Made by a program: the position numbers and the translations under genes
Notes under the pieces: model-generated
Seen by the model: the letters and a program-made list of their open reading frames with translations, nothing else
Databases searched by the model: none
Told to the model about the DNA's origin: nothing
Shown here: positions 7,654 to 42,215 of the stretch, in pieces
How the letters are laid out: each line of letters starts with the position of its first letter
How positions within the stretch are numbered: the first letter of the stretch is position 1
NCBI GenBank assembly: GCA_028580875.1
Contig: JAJSDS010000003.1
Span: 1 to 45,154 of the forward strand
Direction: 5' to 3'
DNA: 45,154 nt
DNA from: Nitrosotalea sp.
GTDB taxonomy: Archaea > Thermoproteota > Nitrososphaeria > Nitrososphaerales > Nitrosopumilaceae

Positions 7654-7675
7654 ATGTTAATTAATTAGAAAAAAG

Positions 7676-8017: not shown

Positions 8018-8073
8018 GTTATAGAATTCAATTGATTTTATTTAGACTTGGTCTGAAACCATTAAATCAAAAA

Positions 8074-8086: not shown

Positions 8087-8141
8087 CGTAATAATCTGTG
8101 CCACATTATACTTCATATACCTTTTAGCATGAACATATGTA

Positions 8142-9455
8142 ATGGCGGTTATTCCCCCTCAGAATATGCCTAACTTCAAGATGCTTTTAGATCAGTTCAA
8201 AAATACAAGGAGTCAGACATTAGAGTTAGTTAAGCCATTAGAGAAGGAAGACTATGTAGTACAGACTGCCTTTTTTATGAGCCCGCCAAAGTGGCACCTA
8301 GGACATGTAAGTTGGTTTTATGAAGTAATAATGAGTAAGATAAATCCAAGTTATGAATTTCATTCAAAAGAATATTCAAAAATATTCAACTCATATTATC
8401 AAGCTCTGGGACAACCACGCGATAAGGCCAAACGAGGGATCCTGTCAAGACCAACAGTTCAAGAGACATTGGACTATTTTTTCATGATCAACAAAAAAGT
8501 TGAAGACTTTCTTTCAAATATTAAAAATGAGGAGGATTTCTTACTGTTCCAACTTGCATTTAATCACGAGTACCAACATCAAGAGCTTCTAGTGTATGAT
8601 GTACAAAATCTCTTGGCTGACTCGTACCATCCAGTGAAACAAAACAATGCGCCAATTCCATCACCCGTAGAAAAGAATGCAAAAATGATCTACGGTGGCT
8701 TGTTCGAAATGGGTTATCCTGGTCTTGATTTTTGTTACGACATTGAACTTCCAGAACATACAGTATACCTAAATTCTTACTTGATGGATACATTTCCTGT
8801 TACAAATGGTGATTATCTCAAATTCATCACAGATGGAGGATATGAGAATTTTAGATTTTGGCTTTCAGATGGATGGGAGAAAATAAAGAAAGAAGGTTGG
8901 ATTGCCCCCATGTACTGGGAAAAGGAGGAGGAACAGTGGGTTCGTCATGATTTTAGAGGAAAACACAAGATAAATCTCAATGAACCTATTTGCAATGTAA
9001 GCTACTATGAAGCCGATGCATACTGTAAATGGGCAGGAAAGAGACTCCCTACAGAAGCAGAATGGGAAAAAGCATCTTCATGGAATGAATCCAAGGAGAT
9101 AAAGACAGTGTATCCTTGGGGCAATGAACCTCCAAATGCTAGACATGCCAATCTGTTAGAATCCCATATCTGGTCACCTTCTGTCATAGGTTCTTATCCA
9201 GAAGGAAAAAGTCACTATGGCTGTCAACAAATGATGGGAGATGTGTGGGAATGGACATCATCAGATTTTGTTGGGTATCCTGGTTTCAAGTCAGGTTTTG
9301 TAGAATATAATGACAAATGGTTTTGCAATCAAAAAGTCTTGAGAGGTTCTTCATTTGCAACACCTATTGCATCCATCAGAAATAGTTACAGGAATTTTTT
9401 TAGACCAGATGAACGATGGATGTTTGCAGGATTTAGATGTGTTACAGATATCTAG
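8142..9455 (+). CDS. egtB: EgtB-like iron-dependent sulfoxide synthase (DinB_2 + FGE-sulfatase)
   Basis: HLGH and HEYQHQE (HX3HXE iron motif) in the N-terminal domain; C-terminal FGE-type 'PVTNGDYLKFI...GKRLPTEAEWEKA...GDVWEWTSS...VLRGGSF-like...RCV'. Confidence 0.9.
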   Translation: MAVIPPQNMPNFKMLLDQFKNTRSQTLELVKPLEKEDYVVQTAFFMSPPKWHLGHVSWFYEVIMSKINPSYEFHSKEYSKIFNSYYQALGQPRDKAKRGILSRPTVQETLDYFFMINKKVEDFLSNIKNEEDFLLFQLAFNHEYQHQELLVYDVQNLLADSYHPVKQNNAPIPSPVEKNAKMIYGGLFEMGYPGLDFCYDIELPEHTVYLNSYLMDTFPVTNGDYLKFITDGGYENFRFWLSDGWEKIKKEGWIAPMYWEKEEEQWVRHDFRGKHKINLNEPICNVSYYEADAYCKWAGKRLPTEAEWEKASSWNESKEIKTVYPWGNEPPNARHANLLESHIWSPSVIGSYPEGKSHYGCQQMMGDVWEWTSSDFVGYPGFKSGFVEYNDKWFCNQKVLRGSSFATPIASIRNSYRNFFRPDERWMFAGFRCVTDI

Positions 9456-10486
9456 GGTGATAATAACACTAGAGAAAAATACTCATTCTTGTCTTTCCAG
9501 ATCTCTTTTACCTTAAAGTCGGATTTTTTTGCCAATGAATATATCTGATCAACTGTATACTTGTGAGAATATTCGGTTAAAATCATCTCACCCTTTTTGA
9601 ATTTAATTGCTACATCTATTTGTGATAACCATATTTCTTGGTCCACTTTTGATTGTATATGCATCTCAATTCTTTTTTGTTGTTCATTAAAAAATGATAC
9701 ATGTTCAAAGTTTTTTAGATCAAAGTTTCCACCAAACTCTTTGTTAATCCTTGTAAGGAGATTTAGATTAAACTTGGCTGTTATTCCCATGGAATCATCA
9801 TAGGCTCTCTCTAACACTTGTCTGTCCTTTACCAAATCCAACCCTACAAGAAAATAATCGCCTTTTTTCATCGAGTCATGAATTTTTCTTAGAAATTTGA
9901 TTGCTCCCCTACTATCAAAGTTTCCCAAGCTAGAACCAAGAAATACAAAGAGTTTACACTGCTCAATAGATGCCACAAAGTCAAGTCCACTTTCATAATG
10001 ATCAATTATGCCGGTAATTTTCAAATTGAGATAATCCTTTTGAAGATCCAGTGAGCTCTCTTTGAGTATATCTGAGATATCGATTGGGTAGTATTCTACT
10101 AGGTCCTGCATTTGAGTAAGTGCTTCCAGGAGTTTACGAGTTTTCAAGGCAGAACCGCTACCAAATTCTATCAAGGAATAGTCAGTTCTAAGATATTTAG
10201 ATAGATTGTCCTTGATTGTATCCAATATTTCTGATTCTGCTCTAGTCAGATAATATTCATCAAGTGTGGATATTTTTTCAAACAGGCAAGAGCCCATTTC
10301 ATCATAGAAAAACTTGGGGTGGATGAATTTATTCTTCCTTTGTAGTCCCTGGAATATCTCCCTTGGGAAGGTATGTTCGGTTTGTTTTTTTGTCTGAACA
10401 TAGCAAAATCTTGGATTTACTATAACCTGAGTATATTTTTGGTCATTTTTTTTCAATCCTATATTTCTAGTCCTCGATTCGGTCAT
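9452..10486 (-). CDS. egtD: EgtD-like L-histidine N-alpha-methyltransferase
   Basis: 'KFFYDEMGSCLFEKISTLDEYYLTRAESEIL...LIEFGSGSALKTRKLLEAL...YYPIDIS...FLGSSLGNF'. Confidence 0.92.
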   Translation of the reverse strand: MTESRTRNIGLKKNDQKYTQVIVNPRFCYVQTKKQTEHTFPREIFQGLQRKNKFIHPKFFYDEMGSCLFEKISTLDEYYLTRAESEILDTIKDNLSKYLRTDYSLIEFGSGSALKTRKLLEALTQMQDLVEYYPIDISDILKESSLDLQKDYLNLKITGIIDHYESGLDFVASIEQCKLFVFLGSSLGNFDSRGAIKFLRKIHDSMKKGDYFLVGLDLVKDRQVLERAYDDSMGITAKFNLNLLTRINKEFGGNFDLKNFEHVSFFNEQQKRIEMHIQSKVDQEIWLSQIDVAIKFKKGEMILTEYSHKYTVDQIYSLAKKSDFKVKEIWKDKNEYFSLVLLSP

Positions 10487-10752
10487 GTGCTACATCCTCC
10501 TTGATTACAGCTTCCACATCCACCCTTCCTTGTTGAAAACCAGGCTATGAAGCAAAATCCCATGACATACCAAAGATAATGAATTGGAAAGGTTTGAAAA
10601 ATGAAAATAGGTACAGCATAATTTATCATTACAAAAGTAAATAGAGTCAACCCTATGATTGCAGATACCTTACTTATTCTGTCAAGTCTTCTAGCAAGAA
10701 TTCTAGTTGCAGCTATATCAGAATTGTCTTTATTTTCTTTTTCAATTTTCAT
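10483..10752 (-). CDS. Small two-TM membrane protein with Cys-rich tail (GGCGSCNQGGCST)
   Basis: 89 aa; overlaps the egtD start by 4 nt (ATGA-type), same strand. Confidence 0.7.
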   Translation of the reverse strand: MKIEKENKDNSDIAATRILARRLDRISKVSAIIGLTLFTFVMINYAVPIFIFQTFPIHYLWYVMGFCFIAWFSTRKGGCGSCNQGGCST

Positions 10753-10780
10753 ATTTTGAACATCTCCATGATTAATTTTA

Positions 10781-10963
10781 TTATATCAAATTAGCATTTT
10801 TGGCGCATTGTTTATGATAATAATTACCGTGTCGTGCAGTAGAAACAACAATTTCATATGTTTGAAATTCTGTAGCGCATCTGCTGCATTTTGATTTGCC
10901 ATTATTTTTTAAACGACCTAATAAATTTGGCAATAATTTGTAAACATCAATCATTTGTTTCAT
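10781..10963 (-). CDS. Small putative zinc-binding protein
   Basis: 'KSKCSRCATEFQTYEIVVSTARHGNYYHKQCAKN': CxxC...HxxC. Confidence 0.6.
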   Translation of the reverse strand: MKQMIDVYKLLPNLLGRLKNNGKSKCSRCATEFQTYEIVVSTARHGNYYHKQCAKNANLI

Positions 10964-11032
10964 TCCTACGAGTACAGATTTGACATATGTTATTCATATC
11001 CTTGTATTTTCTATTAATTTTCATTATCTCAC

Positions 11033-11314
11033 TTATTCTGTAACTTTAACCCCATTCCAAAATGCAACATATCCTTTGATCTGATTTGCAGCTGGTCTAG
11101 GTTGTGGATAATACCATGCACAGTCCTCGTTTGTCTTGCCATTAGCTGTAACAGAATAGTAACTTGCTTCTCCTTTCCATCCGCATCTAGTCTTAGTTTC
11201 ACTTGAATGAAATAATTCTTTGTTGATAGACTCTGGAGGAAAGTAATGATTTCCTTCAACAACTATTGTCTTGTCACTTTGAGCAAGTATTGTGTTATTC
11301 CATATTGCTTTCAT
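11033..11314 (-). CDS. DUF427 domain protein
   Basis: 'MKAIWNNTILAQSDKTIVVEGNHYFPPESI...ETKTRCGWKGEASYYSV...WYYPQPRPAANQIKGYVAFW'. Confidence 0.85.
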   Translation of the reverse strand: MKAIWNNTILAQSDKTIVVEGNHYFPPESINKELFHSSETKTRCGWKGEASYYSVTANGKTNEDCAWYYPQPRPAANQIKGYVAFWNGVKVTE

Positions 11315-11502
11315 ATTTTTATACTCCCCTTTTTTTTCCTAGAGGTCAGTCTCATTTTTGATCCACAACATGGACATCTGTTTCCTGCATAGCCAATAAA
11401 AGTGTCACATACACTACATCGCTTGTAACCTAAAGAATATCGCAAAGATGTAGGTATATTCACAGGTTTTCTTGTTTCACATAAATTTTTACAATGCATC
11501 AA
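11311..11502 (-). CDS. Small zinc-ribbon protein
   Basis: 'RCSVCDTFIGYAGNRCPCCGSKMRL'; overlaps the DUF427 gene by 4 nt. Confidence 0.65.
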   Translation of the reverse strand: MMHCKNLCETRKPVNIPTSLRYSLGYKRCSVCDTFIGYAGNRCPCCGSKMRLTSRKKKGSIKI

Positions 11503-11581
11503 TTCACATCTACTCAGAGAATATGGAATTTAATTTATTCCTCCAACGTTACAGCTTTTTCTAGAACTGTTAAAGACTAAT

Positions 11582-11869
11582 TCATGAATTCTCTTTATAT
11601 CGATGCAAACTATCAGAGCCTTGTGATTCTGAATTTTCATGTTGTTTTTGCATTTTTGCAAGATCTTTGAGCATCTTACTCATCCTTTGTTTGGATCGTA
11701 GGCTCATAATTGCAGTCATCATAAGGGGAGAAGTCGAGATCCCTAGTCCCATCCCTAGAAGCATGGAGATATGCGACTCGGTGATTTTTAGCACTTCCAT
11801 GACAATTACCAATAAAACAAGAATTCCTGTTACTATAATACATGCTAAAAAATAACGAGTTTTCAACAT
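11582..11869 (-). CDS. Small two-TM membrane protein, unknown
   Basis: 95 aa, hydrophobic N-terminal half, charged C-terminus. Confidence 0.5.
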   Translation of the reverse strand: MLKTRYFLACIIVTGILVLLVIVMEVLKITESHISMLLGMGLGISTSPLMMTAIMSLRSKQRMSKMLKDLAKMQKQHENSESQGSDSLHRYKENS

Positions 11870-11971
11870 AAAGATGATTAAAAAATATTGATTTAACTAT
11901 TTTTCCAAATTAAAAAAGTAGGACAGGAGTTGCACTCCCTTTTTAGACTTAACTTGATCCTATTAATCAAA

Positions 11972-12637
11972 TCAAGATCTTCTAACAATAGCAGTCGTAA
12001 CTGCGCCCAAGACGATACCAAAGACGATATGCGATACGAACGATCCACCGAGAATTGAAGGCATTATCTTCTGAGACTGCTCCATAATCATTTTGTCCAT
12101 CTCTTCCATCTTCATCTTCTCATCTGCTGCAGATGTTCCTTTCATTCCTTGATTTTCCATGGTACCTTGGCTATTCATGGAAGAATTTTCCATGGAACTT
12201 CCGCTCATACCTTTTTCAGGTGCCATATTGCCTTGCATTGGCATCATTTTCATCAGGTCCATCATGTGTGGTGGCATTGCAGTCATTGCTACTGGTAAAA
12301 ATATCACTGCATATGCAATAATTCCGGTAGCTGTACCTAATGCAATTCCTTTTTTGAATCCGGTAATTTGCAATTTAGGGGTGCTGATTATCGCACCAAA
12401 AATGGCACCAATTGCTATACTGGTACCAAAATGTGCAGCTATGCCGGGTCCCAATGCTGCTTCGTATGACTGACCGGTTATCATTCCCATTATGATGGCA
12501 AAACAATTTGGTCCCATTCCTAACATGTTCATTAGGACGCTCATGATGCCGTACATTGCGGCGCCGCCTGCTATTCCTCCAATTATGCCTGCACTAAGTG
12601 ATTTCTTGGCAGGATATTGGATTGTTTGTGACGTCAT
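11972..12637 (-). CDS. Multi-TM membrane protein with Met-rich cytoplasmic/loop segment
   Basis: 'KKSLSAGIIGGIAGGAAMYGIMSVLMNMLGMGPNCFAIIMG...MMDLMKMMPMQGNMAPEKGMSGSSMENSSMNSQG'. Confidence 0.7.
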   Translation of the reverse strand: MTSQTIQYPAKKSLSAGIIGGIAGGAAMYGIMSVLMNMLGMGPNCFAIIMGMITGQSYEAALGPGIAAHFGTSIAIGAIFGAIISTPKLQITGFKKGIALGTATGIIAYAVIFLPVAMTAMPPHMMDLMKMMPMQGNMAPEKGMSGSSMENSSMNSQGTMENQGMKGTSAADEKMKMEEMDKMIMEQSQKIMPSILGGSFVSHIVFGIVLGAVTTAIVRRS

Positions 12638-27556: not shown

Positions 27557-27724
27557 ATGCCAAATTTATTATGTATAACTCCTAGTCTTCCTTTACAAAA
27601 AGTAATTAAAACAAATTCATATGATGTTGAATTGAGCAATATGTTGACTTTTACACAATGGTTTATTGAAGAGTACAGTTTTACAAGAAAAGCGATAGAG
27701 ATGAAGGGTGACTTTAGTAATTAA
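27557..27724 (+). CDS. Small ORF preceding the HamA-like gene
   Basis: MPNLLCITPSLPLQKVIKTNSYDVELSNMLTFTQWFIEEYSFTRKAIEMKGDFSN* (55 aa); overlaps the next start by 17 nt. Below ORF-track cutoff. Confidence 0.35.
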   Translation: MPNLLCITPSLPLQKVIKTNSYDVELSNMLTFTQWFIEEYSFTRKAIEMKGDFSN

Positions 27725-28517
27725 GACAGAACAAGTATATCATTCCAATGGATCAGCTAATGCAAAGTATTTTGGATTACAATTCCACAATGAAGGATTG
27801 GAAGAGTATTTGGGTGACCGAGTAAACAAGCGATTTTATGATTTAGAAGGAACAGCTGCAGCTATTGAAGAATTTTCCGATCTAGAATTGACAGGATTTA
27901 CGCGAACATCACTTGCAGCAATTTTTTCAAGTCAGCCCAGTGTCATACCATGGAAGATTGCCGAAACTTTTGTTGAATGTTACTTTGAAGATTTTCTCAA
28001 TATACAATTTCCATACAATGGAAGTCGAGATGCAAAGAATCCCAAAGCTAGTTTGGCAGGAGCTGATATAGTTGGTTTTACGTATGAAAATGATAATGTT
28101 GTATTAGTTTTTGGTGAAGTAAAAACATCCAATGATGCATCATATCCCCCAAATGTAGTTTATGGTAGAACTGGTTTAAAATATCAAATAAATGATCTGA
28201 TATCTAGTTGGAAAACCAGATCAAGTCTAATCAGATGGTTATATTTTAGAATAAAATCACATGATAATAGAGATGCTATCATGCCAGATTTCAAAAAAGC
28301 TGTTGCCATATATATCAAATCAAGATTTGAAAAAATGAAAATATTCGGAGTATTAGTTCGTGATGTGCAACCCAATGATGCAGACCTGAAAAGACAATAT
28401 GATACATTGATCACAGGTCTGAAATCTTTGACACAGTTAGAACTTCTAGCATTCTATCTACCGGTTAGGATATCAGATCTTTCTACAAAAATTGGAGGTA
28501 ATTCAAGTGGAACTTAA
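27708..28517 (+). CDS. HamA-like (DUF1837-type) PD-(D/E)xK nuclease candidate, Hachiman-like
   Basis: 'SLAGADIVGFTYENDNVVLVFGEVKTSND' (D...ExK nuclease signature); directly upstream of a large SF2 helicase gene, as in Hachiman/AbpAB. Confidence 0.65.
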   Translation: MTLVIKTEQVYHSNGSANAKYFGLQFHNEGLEEYLGDRVNKRFYDLEGTAAAIEEFSDLELTGFTRTSLAAIFSSQPSVIPWKIAETFVECYFEDFLNIQFPYNGSRDAKNPKASLAGADIVGFTYENDNVVLVFGEVKTSNDASYPPNVVYGRTGLKYQINDLISSWKTRSSLIRWLYFRIKSHDNRDAIMPDFKKAVAIYIKSRFEKMKIFGVLVRDVQPNDADLKRQYDTLITGLKSLTQLELLAFYLPVRISDLSTKIGGNSSGT

Positions 28518-31500
28518 ACATGAATTTCTCAATCTACTAGATAATCATCTAGTAAATGAGGCAAATGAAATTGTAAAACGAATCAAAATTAATAAAACAA
28601 TAGATATTCAATACACTTTAACTGCTGAAAATATTGAAAAAATTGAACAAGTGGTAGGTGTTTATGAGATTGCCATTTCAGATTTGTGGTCTTTCGCATT
28701 TAGTACTGAAGAAAGCGATATAGGTAAAAAGAAAAATTTTCATGCTCTTTGTAAAGAAACCTTTGATTTACTACAATACCTTCCGCTACCTCAAGAGCCG
28801 ATTGAAAAAATAAAACAGGCGTTAAAACTCTTGACCTATTCTTATCTTGGAGAAAAATGGGAGGATATGAAACGCTTGTTGGATGAGAATGATTTCTTCT
28901 GGAATGTGCCATTAGACCAAGAAAAGAATTGGGATGCACGATTATTTATGAAGACATATTTAGCAATTCTTCATCTCACAAGAAAAAAATCATGGAATGA
29001 TCTCAATATGGTATCTCAATTAATTGTTGAATTAAGAACTGAACAACAAGAATTTGAGAAAACATATCTTGAAAGCATAGGACCTGAATATCAACAAGGC
29101 TCTGCACTTGAATTGGCATCTTTCTACCACTTGGCAAAAAGCGTGGAATTGATAGGTCAGTACATGTTGCAAGGAACGCCTAACGACATACTTGATCAAT
29201 TAAACTTCCATTTTGACAAAGCCATCACATATTGTCAGGGTGCCAAGGTTGTAGAACTAGATCTAATTCTGAGGATGTTAAATGCTACATTTCGCAAAAT
29301 GATCCAAAATTCAGTATGGACTGTAGCGCGAAGAATTAATTCGCGTGTAACAAAATTCATCAAATTAATTACAGAAGATGAAACAAAACCTGTCTTTGAG
29401 CTATTATATCCTCAGCGTGTTGCAATATTGGAAAAAGGATTATTGGATCCTACCAGCAGAGCAATCGTAGTTAATTTGCCCACATCTAGTGGCAAAACCA
29501 TTATTGCAGAATTTAGGATACTGCAAGCGCTTAATCAGTTTGCAGAAGAGGGCGGTAAAATTGCATACGTGGTACCAACAAAAGCATTAGTCAATCAAAT
29601 CACATCTAGATTACGACGAGAATTAGGCAGATCTCCTCTTAACATCAAAGTAGAAAAAATGAGTGGTGCACTAGAAATAGATCCATTTGAAAATAATTTA
29701 CTGAATTCAAATAGCCTTTTTGATATTTTAGTTACCACTCCGGAGAAACTAAATCTTTTGATACGACATCCAGAAAAAAGTTTAGCAAAATCATTGGTTT
29801 TAATAATAATTGACGAAGCACATAATTTGGCAGATGGTGATAGGGGCGTTAATTTGGAAATGCTACTTTCCAACATAAAGAAAGACTGCGATAGAGCAAA
29901 TTTACTTTTGTTAACTCCTCTTGTACCTAACGGTATGGATGTAGCAAAATGGCTTGATCCAGATCATCCAAAATCCATAACTGTTGAACTAGACTGGTGG
30001 CAACCAAATGATAAGGTAATAGGACTGTATTATCCAGATGGGAAAAGAAATCATACCAAGACTTGTTACAAACCCTTAGCCACTTCTCGTGGAACCATTG
30101 ATCTGCAAGATGAATTTCTGATAGGCGAGTTAAATGATACATATTCATTAACAGAATTACGAAGTTCAAATTATTTTCTCACCGCTATTGTAGCCTCACA
30201 ATTACTTCAAAACCAAAGCATACTCGTACTAGCAGGTAAAATAGCTACAACCTGGAAGATTGCAAAAGAACTATACTCCATATTACCTAACGAAGAAATT
30301 CATGATGACAACATAGAACTTGTTAGCAAATTTGTAGCATCGGAACTAGGAGAAGATTTTCCTCTTGTTTCGTATCTGAAGAAAAGAATCGGAGTACACA
30401 GTGCTGGATTGCCTGATGACATCAGAGAATTAATGGAATGGCTGATGGAAATAGGATCACTCCGAATACTAGTGGCAACTACTACGATAGCACAAGGCAT
30501 GAATTTTCCAGTTTCTGCAATTCTTTTATCCACTTATTCACACCGAGAAGGAAAAATGCCTCCTCGTGATTTCTGGAATCTTGTTGGTAGAGCAGGTCGT
30601 ATTGATCAACGCTCAGTTGGTCTAGTGGGTATTGCAGTAAATAGCAAGAATGCAGAACAGGCTAAAGAAGCAGTGGACTATGTGCAAAAGAATCTAGAAG
30701 ATCTAGTATCCGTGCTTAAACAGATGATAGAAAAAGCTATTACTCTTAGTCAAGAATTAGATCTTACAATTCTGGCGCGGGAACCTGCGTGGTCCTCTTT
30801 TGTACAATATATTTCTCATATGTATTATCAATCTAAAACACTACAAAATTTCAGCTCAGAATTAGAAATGACAATGAGACGTACATATGCATATAATCAA
30901 CTTGATAGAGTCAAAAAACAAATTCTAATTAATGCAGTAAAACAATATGCACAAAAATTAGATAACAATAAACATTTAGCTCCGCTATCTGATCTTACCG
31001 GATTTTCACCAGATACAATTTATACTACCATAGGAAAGATAAGCGCTCTCAAGATACCACAATCCGAATGGACTAGTAGTAGACTCTTTTCCAGTGAAAG
31101 TACTATATTGACTAGATTAGTAGGAATAATGTTATACGATATTCCGGAAACTCGAAAAAATTTATCAGAAATTGATATTCCGGGTACAAGACTAGATGGA
31201 GCTACTCTTAGTAAAATCATAGGTGAATGGGTATCTGGAAAATCTGTAACTGAAATATCAAAAAAATATTTTAAAGGAGAGGATACAACATCTATTACAA
31301 AATGTGTTACTGCAATATATAGCAAAATTGTAAATTCTGCAACATGGGGGCTTGCTGGAATACAAAAAATGGCAGGAATAGATTTTGAAAAACTATCTGC
31401 TGAAGAAACAATGGAAATCAATAATCTTCCTGCTATGATATATTATGGCGTAAAAACTAGCGAAGCAATTTTGATGAGAATGAACAGTGTACCGCGCAGT

Positions 31501-31689
31501 ATTTCAAGTAATATGGGGACAATTTACAAAGATCAAATAACTAGCGTTCAAAACTCTAAATCTCCTGAAATAATGACTTGGCTAAAGAGTCTAGCAGATT
31601 CGGATTGGAATAAAGCCGTACCACAAGGGAAAAATATGTCAGGTATGGAATACAAAAAAATCTGGGAAAAATTATCAGGGGTATCATAA
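28507..31689 (+). CDS. HamB-like Ski2-type SF2 helicase
   Basis: Walker A NLPTSSGKTIIAEF, DEAH (LIIIDEAHNLADGDRGVNLEML), LVATTTIAQGMNFPVSAIL, motif VI DFWNLVGRAGRIDQRSVG. GGAGG RBS at 28493 then GTG 28507 (track opens at TTG 28492). Confidence 0.82.
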   Translation: MELKHEFLNLLDNHLVNEANEIVKRIKINKTIDIQYTLTAENIEKIEQVVGVYEIAISDLWSFAFSTEESDIGKKKNFHALCKETFDLLQYLPLPQEPIEKIKQALKLLTYSYLGEKWEDMKRLLDENDFFWNVPLDQEKNWDARLFMKTYLAILHLTRKKSWNDLNMVSQLIVELRTEQQEFEKTYLESIGPEYQQGSALELASFYHLAKSVELIGQYMLQGTPNDILDQLNFHFDKAITYCQGAKVVELDLILRMLNATFRKMIQNSVWTVARRINSRVTKFIKLITEDETKPVFELLYPQRVAILEKGLLDPTSRAIVVNLPTSSGKTIIAEFRILQALNQFAEEGGKIAYVVPTKALVNQITSRLRRELGRSPLNIKVEKMSGALEIDPFENNLLNSNSLFDILVTTPEKLNLLIRHPEKSLAKSLVLIIIDEAHNLADGDRGVNLEMLLSNIKKDCDRANLLLLTPLVPNGMDVAKWLDPDHPKSITVELDWWQPNDKVIGLYYPDGKRNHTKTCYKPLATSRGTIDLQDEFLIGELNDTYSLTELRSSNYFLTAIVASQLLQNQSILVLAGKIATTWKIAKELYSILPNEEIHDDNIELVSKFVASELGEDFPLVSYLKKRIGVHSAGLPDDIRELMEWLMEIGSLRILVATTTIAQGMNFPVSAILLSTYSHREGKMPPRDFWNLVGRAGRIDQRSVGLVGIAVNSKNAEQAKEAVDYVQKNLEDLVSVLKQMIEKAITLSQELDLTILAREPAWSSFVQYISHMYYQSKTLQNFSSELEMTMRRTYAYNQLDRVKKQILINAVKQYAQKLDNNKHLAPLSDLTGFSPDTIYTTIGKISALKIPQSEWTSSRLFSSESTILTRLVGIMLYDIPETRKNLSEIDIPGTRLDGATLSKIIGEWVSGKSVTEISKKYFKGEDTTSITKCVTAIYSKIVNSATWGLAGIQKMAGIDFEKLSAEETMEINNLPAMIYYGVKTSEAILMRMNSVPRSISSNMGTIYKDQITSVQNSKSPEIMTWLKSLADSDWNKAVPQGKNMSGMEYKKIWEKLSGVS

Positions 31690-31693
31690 TTAA

Positions 31694-33136
31694 GTGGTAG
31701 GTTTGAAAGGAATGCCTGAGAATTCTATTAAAGAAAAATTCATCTCAATGATTGATACTTTCAGAATTGAATCTGATAAATTATCACCCGAAGAAAAAAA
31801 ACACCTTTGGAATGACTTTGGAAAACCTTGTCAGCTCTATATTTTTTCCTGTAAGGATTATAATTTACACCTCATAATTAAAACGAAATTTTCTGAACTA
31901 CGTGATAAAACTATTGAATTAATTGAAATAACACCTGAGAACTTTGAAAATCAATTTGATGCTTTTGAGAATAGATCTACATGGAATAAAAAAATGGAAG
32001 AAAAAGACGGAGATTTTTTTATTCCGAGACCAAAACGAGTTGATTTAATTCGTGACTATTTGGTATATTTTGGACAAAAAATAATTCAGAGAAGAGCTGA
32101 CGTTCAAAACAAATCAACCGGATTTGTGGGGGATTTGTCATTGGGATACTGGGACTTTTCTGGAGATGTGGAAACCATTGATTTGGATGGGAGAGTTAGA
32201 GGACTCGTTCAAGGAGCCAAACAGTCATACCACAATTCCAAAAAGGAGACAATATCTGAAACACCAAAACCAACTTCCTCCTCTCATACAGTATCTGCAT
32301 GTGGTGCATATTTTTACCCCTTTGTGTTGATTGGAGAATTAAAAAAGACCACAAAAGGACAACTATCTGGTTCAGATCATTTACATTTGGATGACATTGT
32401 TTATGATTGTAAATTTGACGATCTTCGAGTAGCAGTAACAAAAGCAGGCCTATTGGTAGTAGAAACAGACGATGTAATCACTGCAATCAAAACCATCAAT
32501 ACTATATTTGGCACTGCCATGCTTCTGGGATTGCCAGTTTATTCTAGTAGGCCACAAGAAATTGCGTTCGTATACCTACGAGAAAGAGCATTTGTGAGTT
32601 CGTGGACAAGTACTACTATTCGTAGTTTAATGTATGATTATCGTACACGATTTTTACGATTGAATATCCCAAGACTACAGATTCATCTTAAGATTTTAAA
32701 ACAAATAATTCAGAGATCAGAAAAAATTTTGAAATCCAAATTAGATGAAGAAGTTAGATTACTTTTAGAATCGCATACATATTCAAACAGTTCCGAAAAC
32801 TTGCAATCTTTCAATACCTCGTGGTTGATAATTGAGAAATATTTGAGAAAGATTTGGGATGAAAAAATGAAATTTGATTTTGTAAATAAAAATATGAAAA
32901 ATAGAGATATTAACTATATCCTGAAAGATCTGAAAACTAGCGAAATTATTACACTAAGCGAATACTCTAAAATGCAAAATTTAAGAGGAACACGAAACAA
33001 AGTGTTCCACGGAAATAGTGAACCAAACATTACACAGACAAAGAGATGTTTTGAAACTGCAGAAGAAATAATCCGAAGAGAAACCAGGATTAACAAAAAA
33101 TTTGATTTTAATGTGTCAAATTACATATATTTTTAA
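31694..33136 (+). CDS. Uncharacterized protein with C-terminal HEPN-type RNxxxH motif
   Basis: C-terminal 'LSEYSKMQNLRGTRNKVFHGNSEPNITQTKRCFETAEEIIRRE' fits R[N]x3H in a helical context; starts 4 nt after the helicase stop. Confidence 0.6.
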   Translation: MVGLKGMPENSIKEKFISMIDTFRIESDKLSPEEKKHLWNDFGKPCQLYIFSCKDYNLHLIIKTKFSELRDKTIELIEITPENFENQFDAFENRSTWNKKMEEKDGDFFIPRPKRVDLIRDYLVYFGQKIIQRRADVQNKSTGFVGDLSLGYWDFSGDVETIDLDGRVRGLVQGAKQSYHNSKKETISETPKPTSSSHTVSACGAYFYPFVLIGELKKTTKGQLSGSDHLHLDDIVYDCKFDDLRVAVTKAGLLVVETDDVITAIKTINTIFGTAMLLGLPVYSSRPQEIAFVYLRERAFVSSWTSTTIRSLMYDYRTRFLRLNIPRLQIHLKILKQIIQRSEKILKSKLDEEVRLLLESHTYSNSSENLQSFNTSWLIIEKYLRKIWDEKMKFDFVNKNMKNRDINYILKDLKTSEIITLSEYSKMQNLRGTRNKVFHGNSEPNITQTKRCFETAEEIIRRETRINKKFDFNVSNYIYF

Positions 33137-33243: not shown

Positions 33244-35412
33244 TTGTATGATGATGTGGAATTAGTTTCTCTAACCATGAAAAATTTTCTTTCAATAGGT
33301 GAGAAATCTGAGACAATCAGTTTTGACAAACTTACCACTATTGTGGGTCCAAATGAGAGCGGTAAAACCAATATTTTCAGGGCTTTAGCATTTGTTAATG
33401 ACTGTCTAAATACCAATACTAGTAATCCTGATCCTTATTATCATAATGGGGATTTAACAAAAGATTTGGAAGTCAAATTATCTATGAAATTAAACGATAA
33501 CGAAATAAGTGGTCTTGCTAATTACATCTTCTGCTCTATTCTATCGGATACTCAACCTCTTAATAGATTTGAAATGACACAATCGGCGATTAGTTTAATC
33601 GAAACATTCCTTCACCATCACAGTAAAACCATCGCTGAAGATTTGTTTAGATACATTACAATTGTCATTAGACGAACAGAAGCAAGATCAATCTATCAAG
33701 GTGATATCATAGTAAAATTAGGCAAAGATGAAGACCTCTACCTTAAACAATATAGCCGAATTACCAAGGATATTACAACACAGCAAGGAGGAAAAAATAT
33801 TTCAGAAGTAATAGTATCCGTAATTCAGAAGAAGAATCCGGATGCAGTAAATGATTTCTTAAAAGATACTAGTAAACCATTCCCAGAATTTAGTTTTAGC
33901 AAAGAGGAAATTATTGATTTCTTCAAAAAAATTGATCCAGATGATAAAATGGTGACATATGACTTTCGAAGTTTTAATTTTGGTGAAGGAAATATTCGTG
34001 AAAAAAACTATCCAGAGGCAATTCTTCTGTTAGAATTTTTAAGAAACATGGGTGCAGAAGAAAGAGGAGTTTCGCTTTTACCGATTATTTCAAAAATCGT
34101 TAGTTCATCCATAGTACGAGTAACTGATCTTCGTACAAAACCACAAGCATTCCTTAGTTTCAAAAATACTTTTCCATACAAATCAATTAGTATGAATGAC
34201 TTGTCTGGTGAATCACTTCCCGAGATTCTTTTTAAGTTAAAAAACAGCCCTTATCCACATATAAGAAAAGCGTACAATAAAATTCAAACATCTTTTAGAA
34301 AGATGTGTAATAATCTTGATTTCGAAATAGGAATAAGGCCTGTGGAATTGACGGTTGGAACAAATACAAAAAAAACTTCCATAGGTCCAGAATACGTAAA
34401 AACAAATGATGGAACGACTATTGAAAATGAATTAGTCATACATTTTATTCGCGATAATGTTTCAATTCCATTAGAATTTTCTGCCGCCGGAATATTTGAG
34501 ATTCTTTTATTACTCACTGCTCTGATAGGACAAAAAGGTAAAGTCATTTTATTGGATGAACCTGCAGTAAACCTTCATCCTCTACTTCAAAGGAAAGTCA
34601 TAGAATTAATTGAAAGTGAAATTGCACAAGATAATGACAATCAGATTATTATAATAACTCATTCACCTTACATGATCAATCCAAGAAATATTGAAAATAT
34701 CTGGAGAATTTCTAGAACCAATAATGAGGTAATGTTCATCAATGTTGGTGAGGCCTTAGATGAACTATCTGAATCCGAAAAACAAAAAATCTTGTTAAAC
34801 CTACAAAGTACAGATATTAGATCTGTATTATTTTCTAAAGGAGTAATACTTGTTGAGGGACCATCTGATAAATTAGTAATTGAACAAGTTGATAGGTTTC
34901 TTTCTTCAAAAGATAAAGGCGCATGTATTAATGATAACGATTGGTATGTCTTAGATATTGTTGGAAAACACTCTCTTTGGGCATACTTGAAAATGGTTAC
35001 AAAACTACGTTTATCCTTTGTCTCCGTAATGGATTATGACGCTTTGATGTATTGTGATAAAAACGAGGCCATTAAGGATCAAAACATACCTGTATCTGCC
35101 ATTCCACGTGCATTGTATAATGTAAAATTACTTTCAGATAAACAAATAGATGATTTAATTCAAATGGCAAAAAATGTGAAAGATGGGTGGTATCCTGATA
35201 ATGAACATGAAATTCTTAATTCAATGGCTAAGACAAATGGCATTTTTGTATTCACGCAGGATTTAGAAGGAGTTTTACAACAACAGGTAAAAAGAAAAGA
35301 GAGCAAACCTTTGAAAGATCTAAATCTGGTCTTGGAGAAAATTACTGAAGATAAACTTCCACAGGAATTTGAACTAATGTCTAAATTCATTAAAGAACGA
35401 ATGGTCCTGTAA
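33244..35412 (+). CDS. OLD-family ATPase/TOPRIM nuclease
   Basis: Walker A 'TTIVGPNESGKTNIFRAL', ABC-type Walker B 'KVILLDEPAVNLHPLLQRKV...IIIITHSPYMI', TOPRIM 'VILVEGPSDKLVIEQ...FVSVMDYDALMY'. Confidence 0.88.
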   Translation: MYDDVELVSLTMKNFLSIGEKSETISFDKLTTIVGPNESGKTNIFRALAFVNDCLNTNTSNPDPYYHNGDLTKDLEVKLSMKLNDNEISGLANYIFCSILSDTQPLNRFEMTQSAISLIETFLHHHSKTIAEDLFRYITIVIRRTEARSIYQGDIIVKLGKDEDLYLKQYSRITKDITTQQGGKNISEVIVSVIQKKNPDAVNDFLKDTSKPFPEFSFSKEEIIDFFKKIDPDDKMVTYDFRSFNFGEGNIREKNYPEAILLLEFLRNMGAEERGVSLLPIISKIVSSSIVRVTDLRTKPQAFLSFKNTFPYKSISMNDLSGESLPEILFKLKNSPYPHIRKAYNKIQTSFRKMCNNLDFEIGIRPVELTVGTNTKKTSIGPEYVKTNDGTTIENELVIHFIRDNVSIPLEFSAAGIFEILLLLTALIGQKGKVILLDEPAVNLHPLLQRKVIELIESEIAQDNDNQIIIITHSPYMINPRNIENIWRISRTNNEVMFINVGEALDELSESEKQKILLNLQSTDIRSVLFSKGVILVEGPSDKLVIEQVDRFLSSKDKGACINDNDWYVLDIVGKHSLWAYLKMVTKLRLSFVSVMDYDALMYCDKNEAIKDQNIPVSAIPRALYNVKLLSDKQIDDLIQMAKNVKDGWYPDNEHEILNSMAKTNGIFVFTQDLEGVLQQQVKRKESKPLKDLNLVLEKITEDKLPQEFELMSKFIKERMVL

Positions 35413-35553: not shown

Positions 35554-38283
35554 ATGAAAGACAAGAATGCCATGAGCGAAAAAGAGACTAGAGAACATAT
35601 TGACAAACAATTACGAAATGTAGGATGGATAAAGAGGTACATTAAAGAGGAAGTAAATTCGGTCAAGTCAAATTTTAAAGATAAAGAATACGTACTCTCT
35701 GAAGGTAAAGACGACGATTCGGGTAGATTTATTGATTATTTGTTATTGGCTGAAGATAATAGTCCTATAGCATTCATTGAAGCAAAGAGATTCTCAAAAG
35801 CAGAAGATGATGGTAGATTACAAGCAAGAACCTATCTTAATGATATAAAAAAATACACTGGAGAAAATCTACCTTATTTTCTAACAAATGGTAACAAATG
35901 GCTTCTCATAGACCAAGACGGAATAGAAAGACCAGTTAGTGGACCATTTTCTCAATTAGATATTACCAGAAGAAATGATCTATATGAAAAAAGAATAGAC
36001 CCTACAACTGTAAATATCAACAGAATAGTCAGCAGACCTAGAAGTATCATCATTGTAAAACAAATGATGGAGCACATCAAAAAAGGTCATAGATCTGCTC
36101 TAGTTTCCATGGCTACCGGTTCTGGAAAAACACGAGTTGCCATGTCAATGATTGATGTCTTGATTAGAGCAAATATCGTTAGAAATGTGTTATTTATTGC
36201 TGATAGGATAGCATTAGCGAATCAGGCAAAATCAGCAGGATTTAAAGAATTTTTTTCTGAAGCTGTTGTTGATCTTAGAGACGACCCGAAAAGTTTCCCA
36301 AACGGTCTATACGTTACAACAGTTCAGACTCTAAGAGGAGGAAAGAAGAGTAGGTATTATGAAAAATTCAGTCCTGGGTTTTTTGATTTAATAATCTTTG
36401 ATGAAGCGCATAGATCCATTTATGATCCAAATAGAGAAGTTCACAGATATTTTGATGCCATGAGAATTGGATTAACTGCTACTCCATCAAGAGCAGAAAA
36501 CAAGAATACATTCGAGTTATTTGATTGTACTCGTGAAAAGCCAACAGTAGAATATACTTATGATGAAGCTATACGGGATGGAATTCTTGTTCCCTATAAG
36601 GCGGAAGCAATAGACACTCAAGTTTTATCTTTAGGCATAGAAGGAGCGAAACTCACAAAAGAATTACAGACACAATTAATCAAACAAGAAGAAGATCCTC
36701 GGTTTATGATGTTACCCGGTTCTTCTTTTGCTAAAGTGTTTATGGATGATAAAACTAACGAACTAATAGTAACAGAATTTCTCAAAAGATGCTACAAATC
36801 AGATGAAGGAAAACCTGCAAAAACAATTTTCTTCTGTGTAAACATCAATCATGCCAAGCACATTAAAAAAATCTTCAACAGAATAGCTCCTGCATTAAGT
36901 AATGAAGTTCAAACTATTGTGTCTGAATATTATAGATATACTGATGAGATCAATAGATTCAAGCTTGACTCTGAGCCTAGAATTGCTCTATCTGTAGGTG
37001 TGTTAGATACTGGAATAGATATTCCAGAAGTGTGTAATCTTGTATTTGCAAAGCCAGTATTCTCAGGTATTAGGTTTTGGCAGATGCTGGGAAGAGGTAC
37101 TAGGAATTTGGAATCCTGCAAGTTCAAAGAATGGCTTCCAAATAGGGAAAAACATGATTTTCTAATTCTAGATTTTACTATTGGGGGACACTCTAACATA
37201 AAATATCATAACTTGAGAGAATCTAAGGAAAGAAAGGCAGGAACAGACGTTCTTACCAAGATCTTTCTCAATAGAGTAGATTTATTAAAAAAACCATTGA
37301 ATAAAAACCAGAAAGAATTCATCGAAAACAAAATTATTGAAGAGGTAGACTCTCTAAACAAAGATTCATTCATAGTACGAGAAAAACTTCCTATAATTAA
37401 GAAAGTAGTTTCAAGAAAGTTTGATTTAAAAATATTCATGGAAGAATTAAAAAAAGAGATAGCACCTCTTATCTCACTAAATCCGAGAGATAATCCATTA
37501 GTTTCAGCATTTATTTTGCAAATAGAGAAACTATTTGGATATATTTTAGATAATGATAATGAGGGAATTAATGAAATTAGAGAATATGTTAAAGAAAAAA
37601 TGGAAAATATTCTACAAAAAGATCATTTAGAAAGCATACAAGAAAAAAGAGAAGAAATAATGAAAGTGTTACAAGAAACGTTTTGGGATGGAATTTCGTT
37701 CGATGATGTAAAATTCATTCTAAAAGAATTATCTTCTCTTATGATATATTACGAAACAAATCCCAAGAAATTAATTCAAGTAGATGCTCCTGATCTCGTT
37801 ATGACTGTAGAGAAACTTCAGTATGTAGTAAGAGAAGATCCAGTAATGAAAGAATTCATTGAATCAAATCCATTAATGAAAAAGATCAAAGATGGCGAAG
37901 GAATCACTTCTCCTGAATTATTAAAATTAGAAGAACAGCTAAAAGAGATCAAACCAGAATTTACTATGGACAATATTGAAAAAATTCAGAAAACTGATTT
38001 CATTCTATTTTTGAGAAAAATTCTAGGATTATCACAAAATTATGATCCTCAGGAAATGATTGAGAAAGAATTTGATAAACACATTATAGAAAAAAATCCT
38101 AATTATAATTCTGAGCAGTTAAAATTTTTGGAATTACTAAAGAAGAATTTTGCTAGAATAAAGCACATAGAACTCAAAGACTTTACCGAGAAACCTCTTT
38201 CTAACGAAAGACCTCTAGACAAGTTTCCTACCTCTGAATTGCAAAAGATAGTCGTGGAATGCAATAAAATTAAGATGAAATAA
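35554..38283 (+). CDS. hsdR: Type I restriction enzyme R subunit
   Basis: 'GRFIDYLLLAEDNSPIAFIEAKRF' nuclease motif, 'VSMATGSGKTRVAMSMIDVL', 'DLIIFDEAHRSIYD', 'GLTATPSR', 'WQMLGRGTR'. Confidence 0.93.
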   Translation: MKDKNAMSEKETREHIDKQLRNVGWIKRYIKEEVNSVKSNFKDKEYVLSEGKDDDSGRFIDYLLLAEDNSPIAFIEAKRFSKAEDDGRLQARTYLNDIKKYTGENLPYFLTNGNKWLLIDQDGIERPVSGPFSQLDITRRNDLYEKRIDPTTVNINRIVSRPRSIIIVKQMMEHIKKGHRSALVSMATGSGKTRVAMSMIDVLIRANIVRNVLFIADRIALANQAKSAGFKEFFSEAVVDLRDDPKSFPNGLYVTTVQTLRGGKKSRYYEKFSPGFFDLIIFDEAHRSIYDPNREVHRYFDAMRIGLTATPSRAENKNTFELFDCTREKPTVEYTYDEAIRDGILVPYKAEAIDTQVLSLGIEGAKLTKELQTQLIKQEEDPRFMMLPGSSFAKVFMDDKTNELIVTEFLKRCYKSDEGKPAKTIFFCVNINHAKHIKKIFNRIAPALSNEVQTIVSEYYRYTDEINRFKLDSEPRIALSVGVLDTGIDIPEVCNLVFAKPVFSGIRFWQMLGRGTRNLESCKFKEWLPNREKHDFLILDFTIGGHSNIKYHNLRESKERKAGTDVLTKIFLNRVDLLKKPLNKNQKEFIENKIIEEVDSLNKDSFIVREKLPIIKKVVSRKFDLKIFMEELKKEIAPLISLNPRDNPLVSAFILQIEKLFGYILDNDNEGINEIREYVKEKMENILQKDHLESIQEKREEIMKVLQETFWDGISFDDVKFILKELSSLMIYYETNPKKLIQVDAPDLVMTVEKLQYVVREDPVMKEFIESNPLMKKIKDGEGITSPELLKLEEQLKEIKPEFTMDNIEKIQKTDFILFLRKILGLSQNYDPQEMIEKEFDKHIIEKNPNYNSEQLKFLELLKKNFARIKHIELKDFTEKPLSNERPLDKFPTSELQKIVVECNKIKMK

Positions 38284-38345: not shown

Positions 38346-38744
38346 ATGATGACTAATACTGGAAAATCACTTGGTAACAAAACCATTTCTACAAAAATTC
38401 CACGGGAAGAATTTACTCGCTTCCAATATTATTGTGCTCAGAATGGGGAAACAATTAACGCATCATTAAGAAGGATGATTCTTTCTGAAATTGATAATCC
38501 GCATCCATCAAAAATAGCAGGTAATAGTATGTTTCAATATAATAAAAACAAGGATAACTTTTCCTGGAGAATAGCTTTGGATGATGAAACAACATTTAGT
38601 ATTGATGATGATCTTCCAGCAAACTCAATAGAACATTTACTTGAATCTTTAATGAAAGCAAAAAACGAACGCAATTCATTTATTAAAAAAACTAACATTG
38701 ATTCTGTTTCACTTCCAAACAAATTGTTGAGGAGAAGAAAATGA
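38346..38744 (+). CDS. Ribbon-helix-helix-like small protein in R-M operon
   Basis: 'KTISTKIPREEFTRFQYYCAQNGETINASLRRMILSEI' MetJ/Arc-like pattern; overlaps hsdS by 4 nt. Confidence 0.6.
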   Translation: MMTNTGKSLGNKTISTKIPREEFTRFQYYCAQNGETINASLRRMILSEIDNPHPSKIAGNSMFQYNKNKDNFSWRIALDDETTFSIDDDLPANSIEHLLESLMKAKNERNSFIKKTNIDSVSLPNKLLRRRK

Positions 38745-39874
38745 AAAATGCATTATCAAGTGGATGGGAGACAGTAGAATTGGGTGATGTGACTGTTTGT
38801 TTAGATGGAGAAAGAATTCCATTAAATAGCGAAGATAGATCTAAAATGAAAGGAAATATTCCATATTACGGTGCAAACGGACAGATAGATTCAATTAATA
38901 AACATATTTTTAATGAAGAACTTCTTTTGCTAGCAGAAGATGGGGGATCTTGGGGACCACATCAGAAATGCTCGTATATTATTAATGGAAAATCATGGGT
39001 AAATAATCATGCTCATGTACTAAAGATGAAAAAAGGAACTGATATTTCTTACTTGATGTATTTCTTAAATCATCATGATCTGAACCAATTCATTTCAGGT
39101 ACTACTAGAGGTAAACTAAATCAGGGAGTTATGAAAAAAATACCAATAATACTTCCCCCGTTGCACGTACAAAAACAAATAGTATCACTTTTAGAAAAAG
39201 CAGAAAAACTAAAAGAAATACGAGATGAAGCAGATAAACTGACAAAAGAATATCTAAAAGCCGTTTTCTTGGAGATGTTTAGAAATTTTGAGGATTCCGA
39301 AATACTTGGAAATCATATATTATTTTTAACAAGTGGATCTAGAGGGTGGGCAAAGTATTACTCTGAGAGTGGGGATGTATTCCTAAGAATTGAAAATGTG
39401 GGTAGGAATCAACTCAATACGGAAAATGTAGTATACGTAAAAGCTCCAAATACACAGGAAGCTAAAAGAACAAAAGTTGAGCCAAGAGATATTTTATTGA
39501 GTATAACTGCAGATCTTGGAAGAACATGTGTAATCCCATCTGAATTTCCAAGAGCTTTCATTAATCAACATCTTGCAATTTTAAGATTGGATAAATTACT
39601 TGATCCGATGTTTGTAGCTCAGTATCTTACCTCAAACAAAGGAATGACCCAAATAAACAAATTAAGTAAAGGAGGTACTAAAGATGGATTAAATTTTACA
39701 GACATTCGTTCCATCAAGGTTCCAATGCCACCAATAAAACTTCAGAAAGATTTTGCAAACATTGTTTATAGATATGAAAAAATTAAAGAATACCAAAAAC
39801 AATCACAAGAACAAATTCACAATTTATTTAATAACATATTGCAAAAATCATTCAAAGGAGAATTAGCATGTTAG
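38741..39874 (+). CDS. hsdS: Type I restriction-modification specificity subunit
   Basis: Two TRD halves with conserved 'PIILPPLHVQKQIVSLLEKAEKL' and 'VPMPPIKLQKDFANIVYRYEKIK'. Confidence 0.93.
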   Translation: MKNALSSGWETVELGDVTVCLDGERIPLNSEDRSKMKGNIPYYGANGQIDSINKHIFNEELLLLAEDGGSWGPHQKCSYIINGKSWVNNHAHVLKMKKGTDISYLMYFLNHHDLNQFISGTTRGKLNQGVMKKIPIILPPLHVQKQIVSLLEKAEKLKEIRDEADKLTKEYLKAVFLEMFRNFEDSEILGNHILFLTSGSRGWAKYYSESGDVFLRIENVGRNQLNTENVVYVKAPNTQEAKRTKVEPRDILLSITADLGRTCVIPSEFPRAFINQHLAILRLDKLLDPMFVAQYLTSNKGMTQINKLSKGGTKDGLNFTDIRSIKVPMPPIKLQKDFANIVYRYEKIKEYQKQSQEQIHNLFNNILQKSFKGELAC

Positions 39875-41337
39875 ATGCAGAATTAAAATCAAAGATCAAT
39901 CTTCTCTGGGATAAATTCTGGAGTGGAGGAATTTCAAATCCATTACAAGCTATCGAACAGATGTCTTATCTTATTTTCATGAAAAGATTAGAAGATGAAG
40001 ATGTCAAAAGAGAACAAAACTCAAAACTTTTGGAAGAAAAATACTACTCTGTATTCAAAAGCAATGAAGATTGTAAATGGTCAAAGTGGACTGGAATGTC
40101 TGCTGAAAAAATGCTTGAACATGTGCGAGATACAGTATTCCCTTTCTTGAGAAAATTAGACGGTGGAGAAAAATCCATTTATCACAAATACATGAAAGAT
40201 GCAAGCTTTACTATTCCTACAGCATCACTTCTTGTTGAAGCTGTAAAAATAATTAATGATATGCATATCAAAGAACAAAACAGAGATACTCAGGGAGATA
40301 TTTATGAATACCTTCTAAGTCAGTTACAAACAGCGGGTAAAAACGGTCAGTTCAGAACTCCGAGACATATTATCAAAATGATGGTTGAAATTCTAGAACC
40401 CAAATATGGTGATAAGATATGTGATCCAGCTTGTGGCACTGCAGGATTTCTTGTTGCTTCATACGAGCACATAATTCGACAAAATACCTCGAAAGGAATC
40501 AGTGAAGGTCATTATGGTGGCGATAAATTAAACGAGAAACAATGGAAGATATTAGAAAATGAAACCTTCTATGGGTTTGATTTTGACCAGACAATGGTTA
40601 GAATTTCTTTAATGAACTTGATGATGCATGGAATTTCTAGCCCAAACATAGAACAGAAAAATACTCTGTCAAAGAGATATGACGAATCAAACTCTTATGA
40701 TGTAGTTCTAGCCAATCCTCCATTTAAGGGAAGTATAGACGAATCTGAAATTGGAGAGAACTTTAGAACACAGACAAAGAAGACCGAATTATTATTCTTA
40801 GAGTTAATGTATAACTTGCTAACAAACGGAGGTAGATGCTCTGTTATAGTTCCTGATGGAGTATTGTTTGGAAACTCTAAAGCTCACAAAAAGATAAGAG
40901 AATTATTGCTTGATAAATGTCGTCTTGATGCAGTAATCTCTATGCCATCTGGAGTCTTCAAGCCTTATGCAGGAGTATCTACTGCAGTATTATTTTTCAC
41001 AAAGGGAGAACCGACAAAAGAAGTCTGGTTTTATGATATGGAAAGTGATGGGTTTAGTCTTGATGATAAGAGAACCCAAACTGACAAAAACGACATTCCA
41101 GATATAATTGAAAAATTCAAGAACAGAAATAAAGAAAAGAATTATGATAGAAAGAAGAAATACTTCTTTATTTCAGTTAAGGAAATTAAGGAAAATAATT
41201 ATGATCTGAGCATCTCAAAATACAAAGAAATCGAATATGAAGAAGTCAAATATGAAAAACCAGAAGTGATTAAAAAGAAAATTTTGGATTTGGAAAATAA
41301 GATTATTGTAACACTAAACCAAATGAAAATGAGTTGA
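39868..41337 (+). CDS. hsdM: Type I restriction-modification methyltransferase subunit
   Basis: 'GQFRTPRHIIKMMVEILEPKYGDKICDPACGTAGFLVASYEHI', 'VVLANPPFKG', 'GGRCSVIVPDGVLFG'. Confidence 0.96.
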   Translation: MLDAELKSKINLLWDKFWSGGISNPLQAIEQMSYLIFMKRLEDEDVKREQNSKLLEEKYYSVFKSNEDCKWSKWTGMSAEKMLEHVRDTVFPFLRKLDGGEKSIYHKYMKDASFTIPTASLLVEAVKIINDMHIKEQNRDTQGDIYEYLLSQLQTAGKNGQFRTPRHIIKMMVEILEPKYGDKICDPACGTAGFLVASYEHIIRQNTSKGISEGHYGGDKLNEKQWKILENETFYGFDFDQTMVRISLMNLMMHGISSPNIEQKNTLSKRYDESNSYDVVLANPPFKGSIDESEIGENFRTQTKKTELLFLELMYNLLTNGGRCSVIVPDGVLFGNSKAHKKIRELLLDKCRLDAVISMPSGVFKPYAGVSTAVLFFTKGEPTKEVWFYDMESDGFSLDDKRTQTDKNDIPDIIEKFKNRNKEKNYDRKKKYFFISVKEIKENNYDLSISKYKEIEYEEVKYEKPEVIKKKILDLENKIIVTLNQMKMS

Positions 41338-41342
41338 ATAAT

Positions 41343-42215
41343 ATGTCATCTCAACCCGTTTCTTCACTTAGTTTTTCTGATGCACAAAGAGCCTGTGAGC
41401 ATTTAATAGACAATATTTACGAATTTGTTGATACAATTAATTCTGTATTTCCAGGTGCTGGTTATGAAGTTCTATCCTCTCATTTAGTAAGTATGAAAGC
41501 AAGAATACTGACTGCGAGAAGCCCTTTTCTCACCACTGATGAATGTGAAGGTTTTATTGGTGAATTTCTTTATACATTCACTCATTTCAATCCGGGTATT
41601 GATCAGAATCTTCAAGATTTCCATAAAGCCTACGTGGAAATTACTCAATTCTTTAGAGATAATCCTGGGATAGGTTCCTTTGAATTAACTAATTATGGTA
41701 ACGACAGAGTAGAACAAATGGTGAAAATAAACCATGCTTCTAACGAAGTTCTAGTTTCATTAAAAAATAATCCATGCAATGTCATCTCACTTTATGCGTC
41801 TTTCTCTATTCATTCTTCTAAAACCGAGATGTCAGAATATGCATTATTAAAAGAATTATCTAATTACAAAAAAATAATGCAGACAAATTCTGCTACTGTA
41901 AGTTTTGATCCAATCAAGATATTTTCAGTAAACAATCCAACTCAAAAGCAAAATGGTCAATTTATTACCGAGGCAAGAGCCATTCGAAATTTAATAGATC
42001 ATCATAAATTTGATCTTGATGTCACGAGTAATCCATGTACAATCCATTTTAAGAGTCAAGCAGGACCTGATTGGGAATTCACATATGATAGAAAATTTAC
42101 AGGTTTGGAATTCAAGGATTATTTGGCACTGCTTGACGTTTTTTACAAATGTCTTGTAAATCTCCTTTTTTGTTATCAATTACTTCAAGTACTCAGAGCA
42201 AAATTTGTAATTTAA
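41343..42215 (+). CDS. HEPN-motif protein downstream of hsdM
   Basis: C-terminal region 'FITEARAIRNLIDHHKFDLDV' (RNxxxH); overlapping or adjoining the hsdM stop, same strand. Confidence 0.6.
   Translation: MSSQPVSSLSFSDAQRACEHLIDNIYEFVDTINSVFPGAGYEVLSSHLVSMKARILTARSPFLTTDECEGFIGEFLYTFTHFNPGIDQNLQDFHKAYVEITQFFRDNPGIGSFELTNYGNDRVEQMVKINHASNEVLVSLKNNPCNVISLYASFSIHSSKTEMSEYALLKELSNYKKIMQTNSATVSFDPIKIFSVNNPTQKQNGQFITEARAIRNLIDHHKFDLDVTSNPCTIHFKSQAGPDWEFTYDRKFTGLEFKDYLALLDVFYKCLVNLLFCYQLLQVLRAKFVI

Follow-up and report, generated by a model that had tools for sequence, protein, structure and literature searches.

The locus raises the question of whether a nuclease, a helicase and the product of a third, closely spaced gene make up one undescribed three-component defence system, as the first-pass annotation had proposed, or whether the pair belongs to another genetic context. 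We analysed a stretch of 45,154 nucleotides (the window; positions 1 to 45,154 of contig JAJSDS010000003.1) from an assembly of the ammonia-oxidising archaeon Nitrosotalea sp., which comprises 2.1 Mb in 317 contigs and is 86% complete with 6.7% contamination. Relatives from the same family include a Nitrosopumilus, in keeping with a place among the ammonia-oxidising Nitrososphaeria. All three open reading frames were confirmed on the forward strand, with lengths of 269, 1065 and 480 amino acids. The nuclease gene lies at positions 27708 to 28517. The helicase frame (28492 to 31689) opens at a TTG at 28492 that precedes the nuclease stop, so that the two frames overlap, as had been described; the likelier true start is a GTG at 28507, placed behind the sequence GGAGGT, which would leave an overlap of 11 nt. 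The third frame (31694 to 33136) was found, in agreement with the earlier annotation, to open at a GTG at 31694, 4 nt past the helicase stop at 31689. Its true start is likely the ATG at 31712, from which the closest relative aligns and which would give a gap of 22 nt. The ATG at position 27557, given as the start in the first-pass annotation, opens another frame, of 55 codons (27557 to 27724), which runs 17 nt into the nuclease gene and for which no relatives were detectable.

Downstream, on the same strand, the three genes are followed by a gene for an OLD-family ATPase-TOPRIM protein (33244 to 35412; PADLOC Old, 1.5e-30, with AAA_21/AAA_15 and OLD-like_TOPRIM matches) and then by type I restriction genes. 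The OLD gene is flanked by gaps of 107 and 141 nt and separates the pair and the third gene from hsdR, the restriction subunit (35554 to 38283; REase_I, 7.7e-92, with ResIII and EcoEI_R_C). A 132-residue protein without a family match (38346 to 38744) is encoded between hsdR and hsdS and overlaps hsdS by 4 nt. The specificity subunit hsdS (38741 to 39874; Specificity_I, 9.3e-52, with Methylase_S) precedes the N6-adenine methyltransferase hsdM (39868 to 41337; MTase_I, 1e-183, with N6_Mtase and HsdM_N). The next gene (41334 to 42215) overlaps hsdM by 4 nt and encodes a 293-residue protein without a family match and without a relative in any library or fetched locus; it carries the string RNLIDH, within RNLIDHH, and is a possible second HEPN protein by motif only. 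Sigma-70-type promoter matches occurred at the level of shuffled sequence and were discarded, the sigma-70 consensus being uninformative for an archaeon.

The nuclease matched the PADLOC model PDC-M23A with an E value of 2.7e-78 over residues 7-265 of 269, and the Pfam HamA family (PF08878) at 15.8 bits, under the curated cutoff of 25 bits. In an alignment of seven nucleases of archaeal and bacterial origin, residues E86, E90, D108, D120, E137-x-K139 and Q160 were invariant; this is, as read from the alignment, the layout of a PD-(D/E)xK nuclease, with the E137-V-K139 motif encoded at positions 28116 to 28124. A sequence search of the PDB with the nuclease returned no match. An alignment-based AlphaFold2 model reached a pLDDT of 81.5, and its best fold match in the PDB was HamA of Escherichia coli Hachiman (8vx9_A, E 7.6e-6, probability 1.00), with a TM score of 0.57 and approximately 9% identity in the fold alignment. 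Two HamA chains were the only entries below an E value of 0.001 in that search. The available text of PMC12278908 describes a D-E(x)K motif with E138 and K140 in HamA of Hachiman. The earlier description of a HamA-like ExK nuclease was thus borne out by both the fold match and the invariance of E137 and K139. Relatives of the nuclease were found neither in scans of viral contigs nor by tblastn against plasmids.

The helicase matched PDC-M23B with an E value of 0 over residues 9-1064 of 1065, followed by HamB at 7.8e-70. A Pfam DEAD domain was recognised, Walker A, DEAH and GRAGR motifs were visible in the sequence, and the nearest solved chains were HamB (8vx9_B, E 1.5e-27), Hel308, Brr2 and Slh1; the helicase core was 29% identical to an E. 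coli HamB. These matches agree with the Ski2-type assignment made beforehand and place the protein among the Ski2-like SF2 helicases of HamB/Hel308 type. By its predicted proteins, the window therefore holds a Hachiman-like pair that is already catalogued as the PADLOC candidate PDC-M23: both proteins match the models of this candidate far above any other, and their genes are adjacent and overlapping. The pair itself is consequently not new, and the literature search found no publication that names PDC-M23. The catalogue models name two proteins only and do not cover the neighbouring HEPN, OLD and restriction genes of the window.

Comparison with Hachiman revealed a shared HamA fold, a D-E(x)K site, a Ski2-like helicase and two adjacent genes. 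The window nuclease differs in scoring below the Pfam HamA cutoff and in its identity of approximately 9% to HamA, and PDC-M23 pairs differ in their recurrent linkage to type I restriction operons, an association not reported for Hachiman in the available text of PMC12278908. The same text describes AbpAB as a Hachiman variant. AbpAB likewise combines a nuclease with a Ski2-like helicase; in AbpA, however, the HamA domain is inactive and a Cap4-like nuclease domain is added at the N terminus, whereas the window nuclease has an intact HamA-like site and no extra domain.

Several helicase matches touched on related arrangements. Those on plasmids mostly reflected partial similarity to other DEAD/DEAH helicases, of which some were true Hachiman. 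Pairs from Rhizobium and Ensifer lacked a PDC-M23A match and were kept out of the pair counts. Two rhizobial plasmids (L073, 8746-13505; L074, 8923-12895) encode a protein of 284-286 residues together with a helicase approximately 27% identical to that of the window; the small protein matched no PADLOC model and is possibly a further divergent HamA-like family, and in L073 a DCL-family gene begins 4 nt past the helicase. One archaeal genome (L027, 1133-12401) carries three tandem PDC-M23B-like helicases, of which the sole adjoining nuclease is broken by a stop codon.

The third protein had been described as ending in the HEPN motif RNKVFH. The motif is real (residues 434-439, positions 32993 to 33010) and conforms to R-N-x3-H; it is not the C-terminal end, since 41 residues follow it. 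The protein itself had no match in Pfam, PADLOC, NCBIfam or PHROGs, and a single-sequence AlphaFold model was unusable (pLDDT 34.5). When its family in the Nitrososphaeria was examined, 6 of 7 members matched DUF4145 weakly (best 1e-5), two matched HEPN_RiboL-PSP and two matched HepT-like families. Residues W377, E381, R434, N435 and H439 were invariant in all seven aligned members. In shuffled copies of the protein, RNxxxH arose in 3% and the looser pattern R-x4-6-H in 80%; because of this chance occurrence, RNKVFH alone is weak evidence, and its invariance in seven relatives carries the weight. DUF4145 is a HEPN family in which the motif is kept in approximately 80% of members and absent from about a fifth, and it is recorded as sharing operons with restriction systems (PMC3710099). 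Taken together, the family matches and the invariant residues suggest that the third gene likely encodes a HEPN protein and candidate RNase, so that the HEPN assignment made earlier stands as probable. No relatives of the protein were found in viral contigs, in phages or by plasmid tblastn, and a PDB sequence search was also blank. Its closest relative (47% identical) lies behind an integrase in L018 (5987-10916), together with TIGR02391-like and TrmB-like genes; the cluster is small, looks mobile and lacks the pair.

The neighbourhood survey did not find the third gene and the pair together outside the window. Relatives of the third gene occurred in six other genomes among 300 of the class and in three further genomes from a sample of the phylum. 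None of the seven relatives with kilobases of flanking sequence on both sides lay near the nuclease or the helicase. Conversely, none of the 16 other pair loci scanned contained a relative of the third gene. These loci come from Nitrososphaeria, Desulfuromonadia, Gammaproteobacteria and Bacilli, 13 extend past the helicase, and the two closest pairs to that of the window (L030 and L031) are among the 16. Since no co-occurrence was seen in these loci, the third gene is not a conserved component of the pair, and the proposed three-component system was not upheld. The genes right after the helicase vary among loci, being Abi_C, RhuM with SLFN_AlbA_2, a DUF6063 protein or nothing related; a distant HamB-like helicase is directly followed by a DCL-family protein.

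The type I restriction genes, by comparison, recur. They (hsdRMS) adjoin the pair in approximately 7 of 17 lineages, the window and E. coli included, a count in which several of the other lineages lie on contigs too short to judge. The gene order is hsdM-hsdS-hsdR-nuclease-helicase in L034, hsdM-hsdS-nuclease-helicase-Abi_C-hsdR in L056 and hsdM-hsdS-nuclease-helicase-RhuM-SLFN_AlbA_2-hsdR in L057. It is hsdM-hsdS-AAA_13-nuclease-helicase in L068, and two E. coli alleles (L066 and L067) share the order mads1-hsdR-hsdM-hsdS-nuclease-helicase. In L062, from the Desulfuromonadia, the order is hsdR-hsdM-hsdS, a 163-residue protein, OLD, a 439-residue protein, nuclease and helicase; this locus (1-12022) holds nearly the gene set of the window (hsdR, hsdM, hsdS, OLD, a protein with RNGILH, nuclease and helicase) in another order. 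In three of these loci the stop of hsdS and the start of the nuclease gene share nucleotides: 4 nt in L056, where the nuclease ATG lies at 10371 and hsdS ends at 10368, 4 nt in L057 and 1 nt in L066. The E. coli pair operon was present in 5 of 5426 complete genomes, and its nuclease, annotated only as 'hypothetical protein', matches PDC-M23A (8e-117). In L066 the operon is placed between dinD and yicC. In both alleles (L066, 7092-16454 of NZ_CM148383.1; L067, 7095-16457 of NZ_CP121149.1) it resides in an integrase-bearing insertion by yicC.

Among 16 pair loci from 15 genomes, 6 have an HsdM_N gene no more than 12.5 kb away, where random placement expects 0.28 (P approximately 7e-8), a null that is too lenient because defence genes cluster in islands. 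E. coli Hachiman loci were considered as a control for the restriction linkage and rejected, their copies being near-identical and therefore not independent. The start-stop overlaps and the insertions between hsdS and hsdR are a stronger argument than the placement statistic. On the nuclease tree the pairs with restriction genes are dispersed, and supported branches force at least four changes, so that the link was made or lost repeatedly. Pairs without type I genes in reach were found in L027, L028, L033, L035, L055 and L058, and the short contigs of L030 and L031, which carry pairs closely related to that of the window, lacked type I restriction genes.

Genes of RNase type accompany several of these restriction-linked pairs. 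Up to four of the seven restriction-linked lineages, the window included, hold unrelated genes of HEPN or PrrC/RloC type. In L056 an Abi_C protein (9.7e-17) with the HEPN-like string RNKGGPVSH is encoded directly after the helicase. In L062 the gene of the 439-residue protein with RNGILH overlaps the nuclease start; this protein is HEPN by motif only, and homology with the window HEPN protein was ruled out by profile comparison. The AAA_13 protein before the nuclease in L068 (6.2e-168) is of the PrrC/RloC kind by family resemblance only, AAA_13 being a family that we take to include PrrC/RloC-like proteins. Among the neighbours scanned, no HEPN-type gene was recognised beside pairs without type I genes. 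Like PrrC at the EcoprrI locus, the window HEPN protein is encoded with a type I restriction system; it differs from PrrC in having no ABC-ATPase part, in following a nuclease-helicase pair and in having an OLD gene placed before hsdR. HEPN genes beside restriction genes have long been known and were proposed as a second line of defence, with 16 HEPN clades linked to restriction systems (PMC3710099), and other defence genes have been reported from the slot between hsdS and hsdR (PMC12255303). Given this known linkage and this slot, the restriction context accounts for the HEPN gene of the window no less well than the pair does. The unrelated HEPN and PrrC/RloC-like genes in other pair-bearing type I loci would still allow a weaker coupling of the pair to some partner of HEPN type.

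We considered that the window is probably a type I restriction-linked defence array in which a Hachiman-like pair is joined by an interchangeable HEPN RNase accessory acting as a translation-stopping back-up. Its base was observed directly: the family, fold and motifs of the nuclease, the family of the helicase, the invariant HEPN motif, the gene order, the non-conservation of the third gene alongside the pair and the recurrent linkage of the pair to type I restriction genes. The biochemical steps, and any contact between the HEPN protein and the pair, are proposed by analogy, the mechanism being taken over from Hachiman, where HamB keeps HamA restrained and sets it free on sensing damaged DNA (available text of PMC12278908), and from the linkage of HEPN genes to restriction systems (PMC3710099). 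By this analogy, the helicase would hold the nuclease in check by binding it, would load on DNA that is broken or single-stranded and, by hydrolysing ATP, would free the nuclease to degrade DNA. If DNA cutting failed, the HEPN RNase would stop translation, in the manner of PrrC next to its type I enzyme. A broader form of this proposal is tentative. The PDC-M23 pair may be a regular type I accessory, with hsdRMS making or recognising damaged invader DNA, the pair sensing this DNA and amplifying its destruction and a swappable HEPN, PrrC/RloC or other toxin gene serving as the RNA-level line; the window would then combine all three levels, plus OLD, in an archaeon.

The same genes could also be a plain defence island in which the pair, the HEPN gene, OLD and the type I genes stand side by side as independent units. 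The gaps on either side of OLD (107 and 141 nt), the solitary relatives of the third gene, the restriction-free pairs (L035, L055 and L058) and the prior report of the hsdS-hsdR slot as a site for defence genes (PMC12255303) are all consistent with such independence, which we regard as doubtful, since start-stop overlaps of hsdS and the nuclease in three lineages exceed loose clustering and the pair sits between hsdS and hsdR in L056 and L057. A three-gene system confined to a narrow archaeal lineage, in which aberrant DNA sensed by the helicase would set off the DNase together with this specific HEPN RNase, appears unlikely: the third gene is in no other pair locus scanned, its relatives stand alone and the genes after the helicase differ from locus to locus, even though the same-strand spacing of 4-22 nt after the helicase stop, the intact HEPN motif and the Abi_C gene with a HEPN-like motif that likewise lies after the helicase and ahead of hsdR in L056 speak for it. 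It is very improbable that the HEPN protein inhibits the pair, as an antitoxin-like or regulatory partner, instead of being an RNase. Several HEPN families are non-catalytic. The motif is missing from about a fifth of DUF4145 proteins (PMC3710099), but R, N and H are invariant in seven of seven relatives, as expected of a catalytic site.

With the restriction-linked array as the preferred reading, the restriction-coupled pair, and not the three-gene claim, deserves to be followed further. In several lineages the start codon of a Hachiman-like pair overlaps hsdS, among them E. coli with its laboratory-tractable operon L066. This operon makes it testable whether a restriction enzyme may feed a damage-sensing nuclease-helicase and whether HEPN genes would provide a back-up line.
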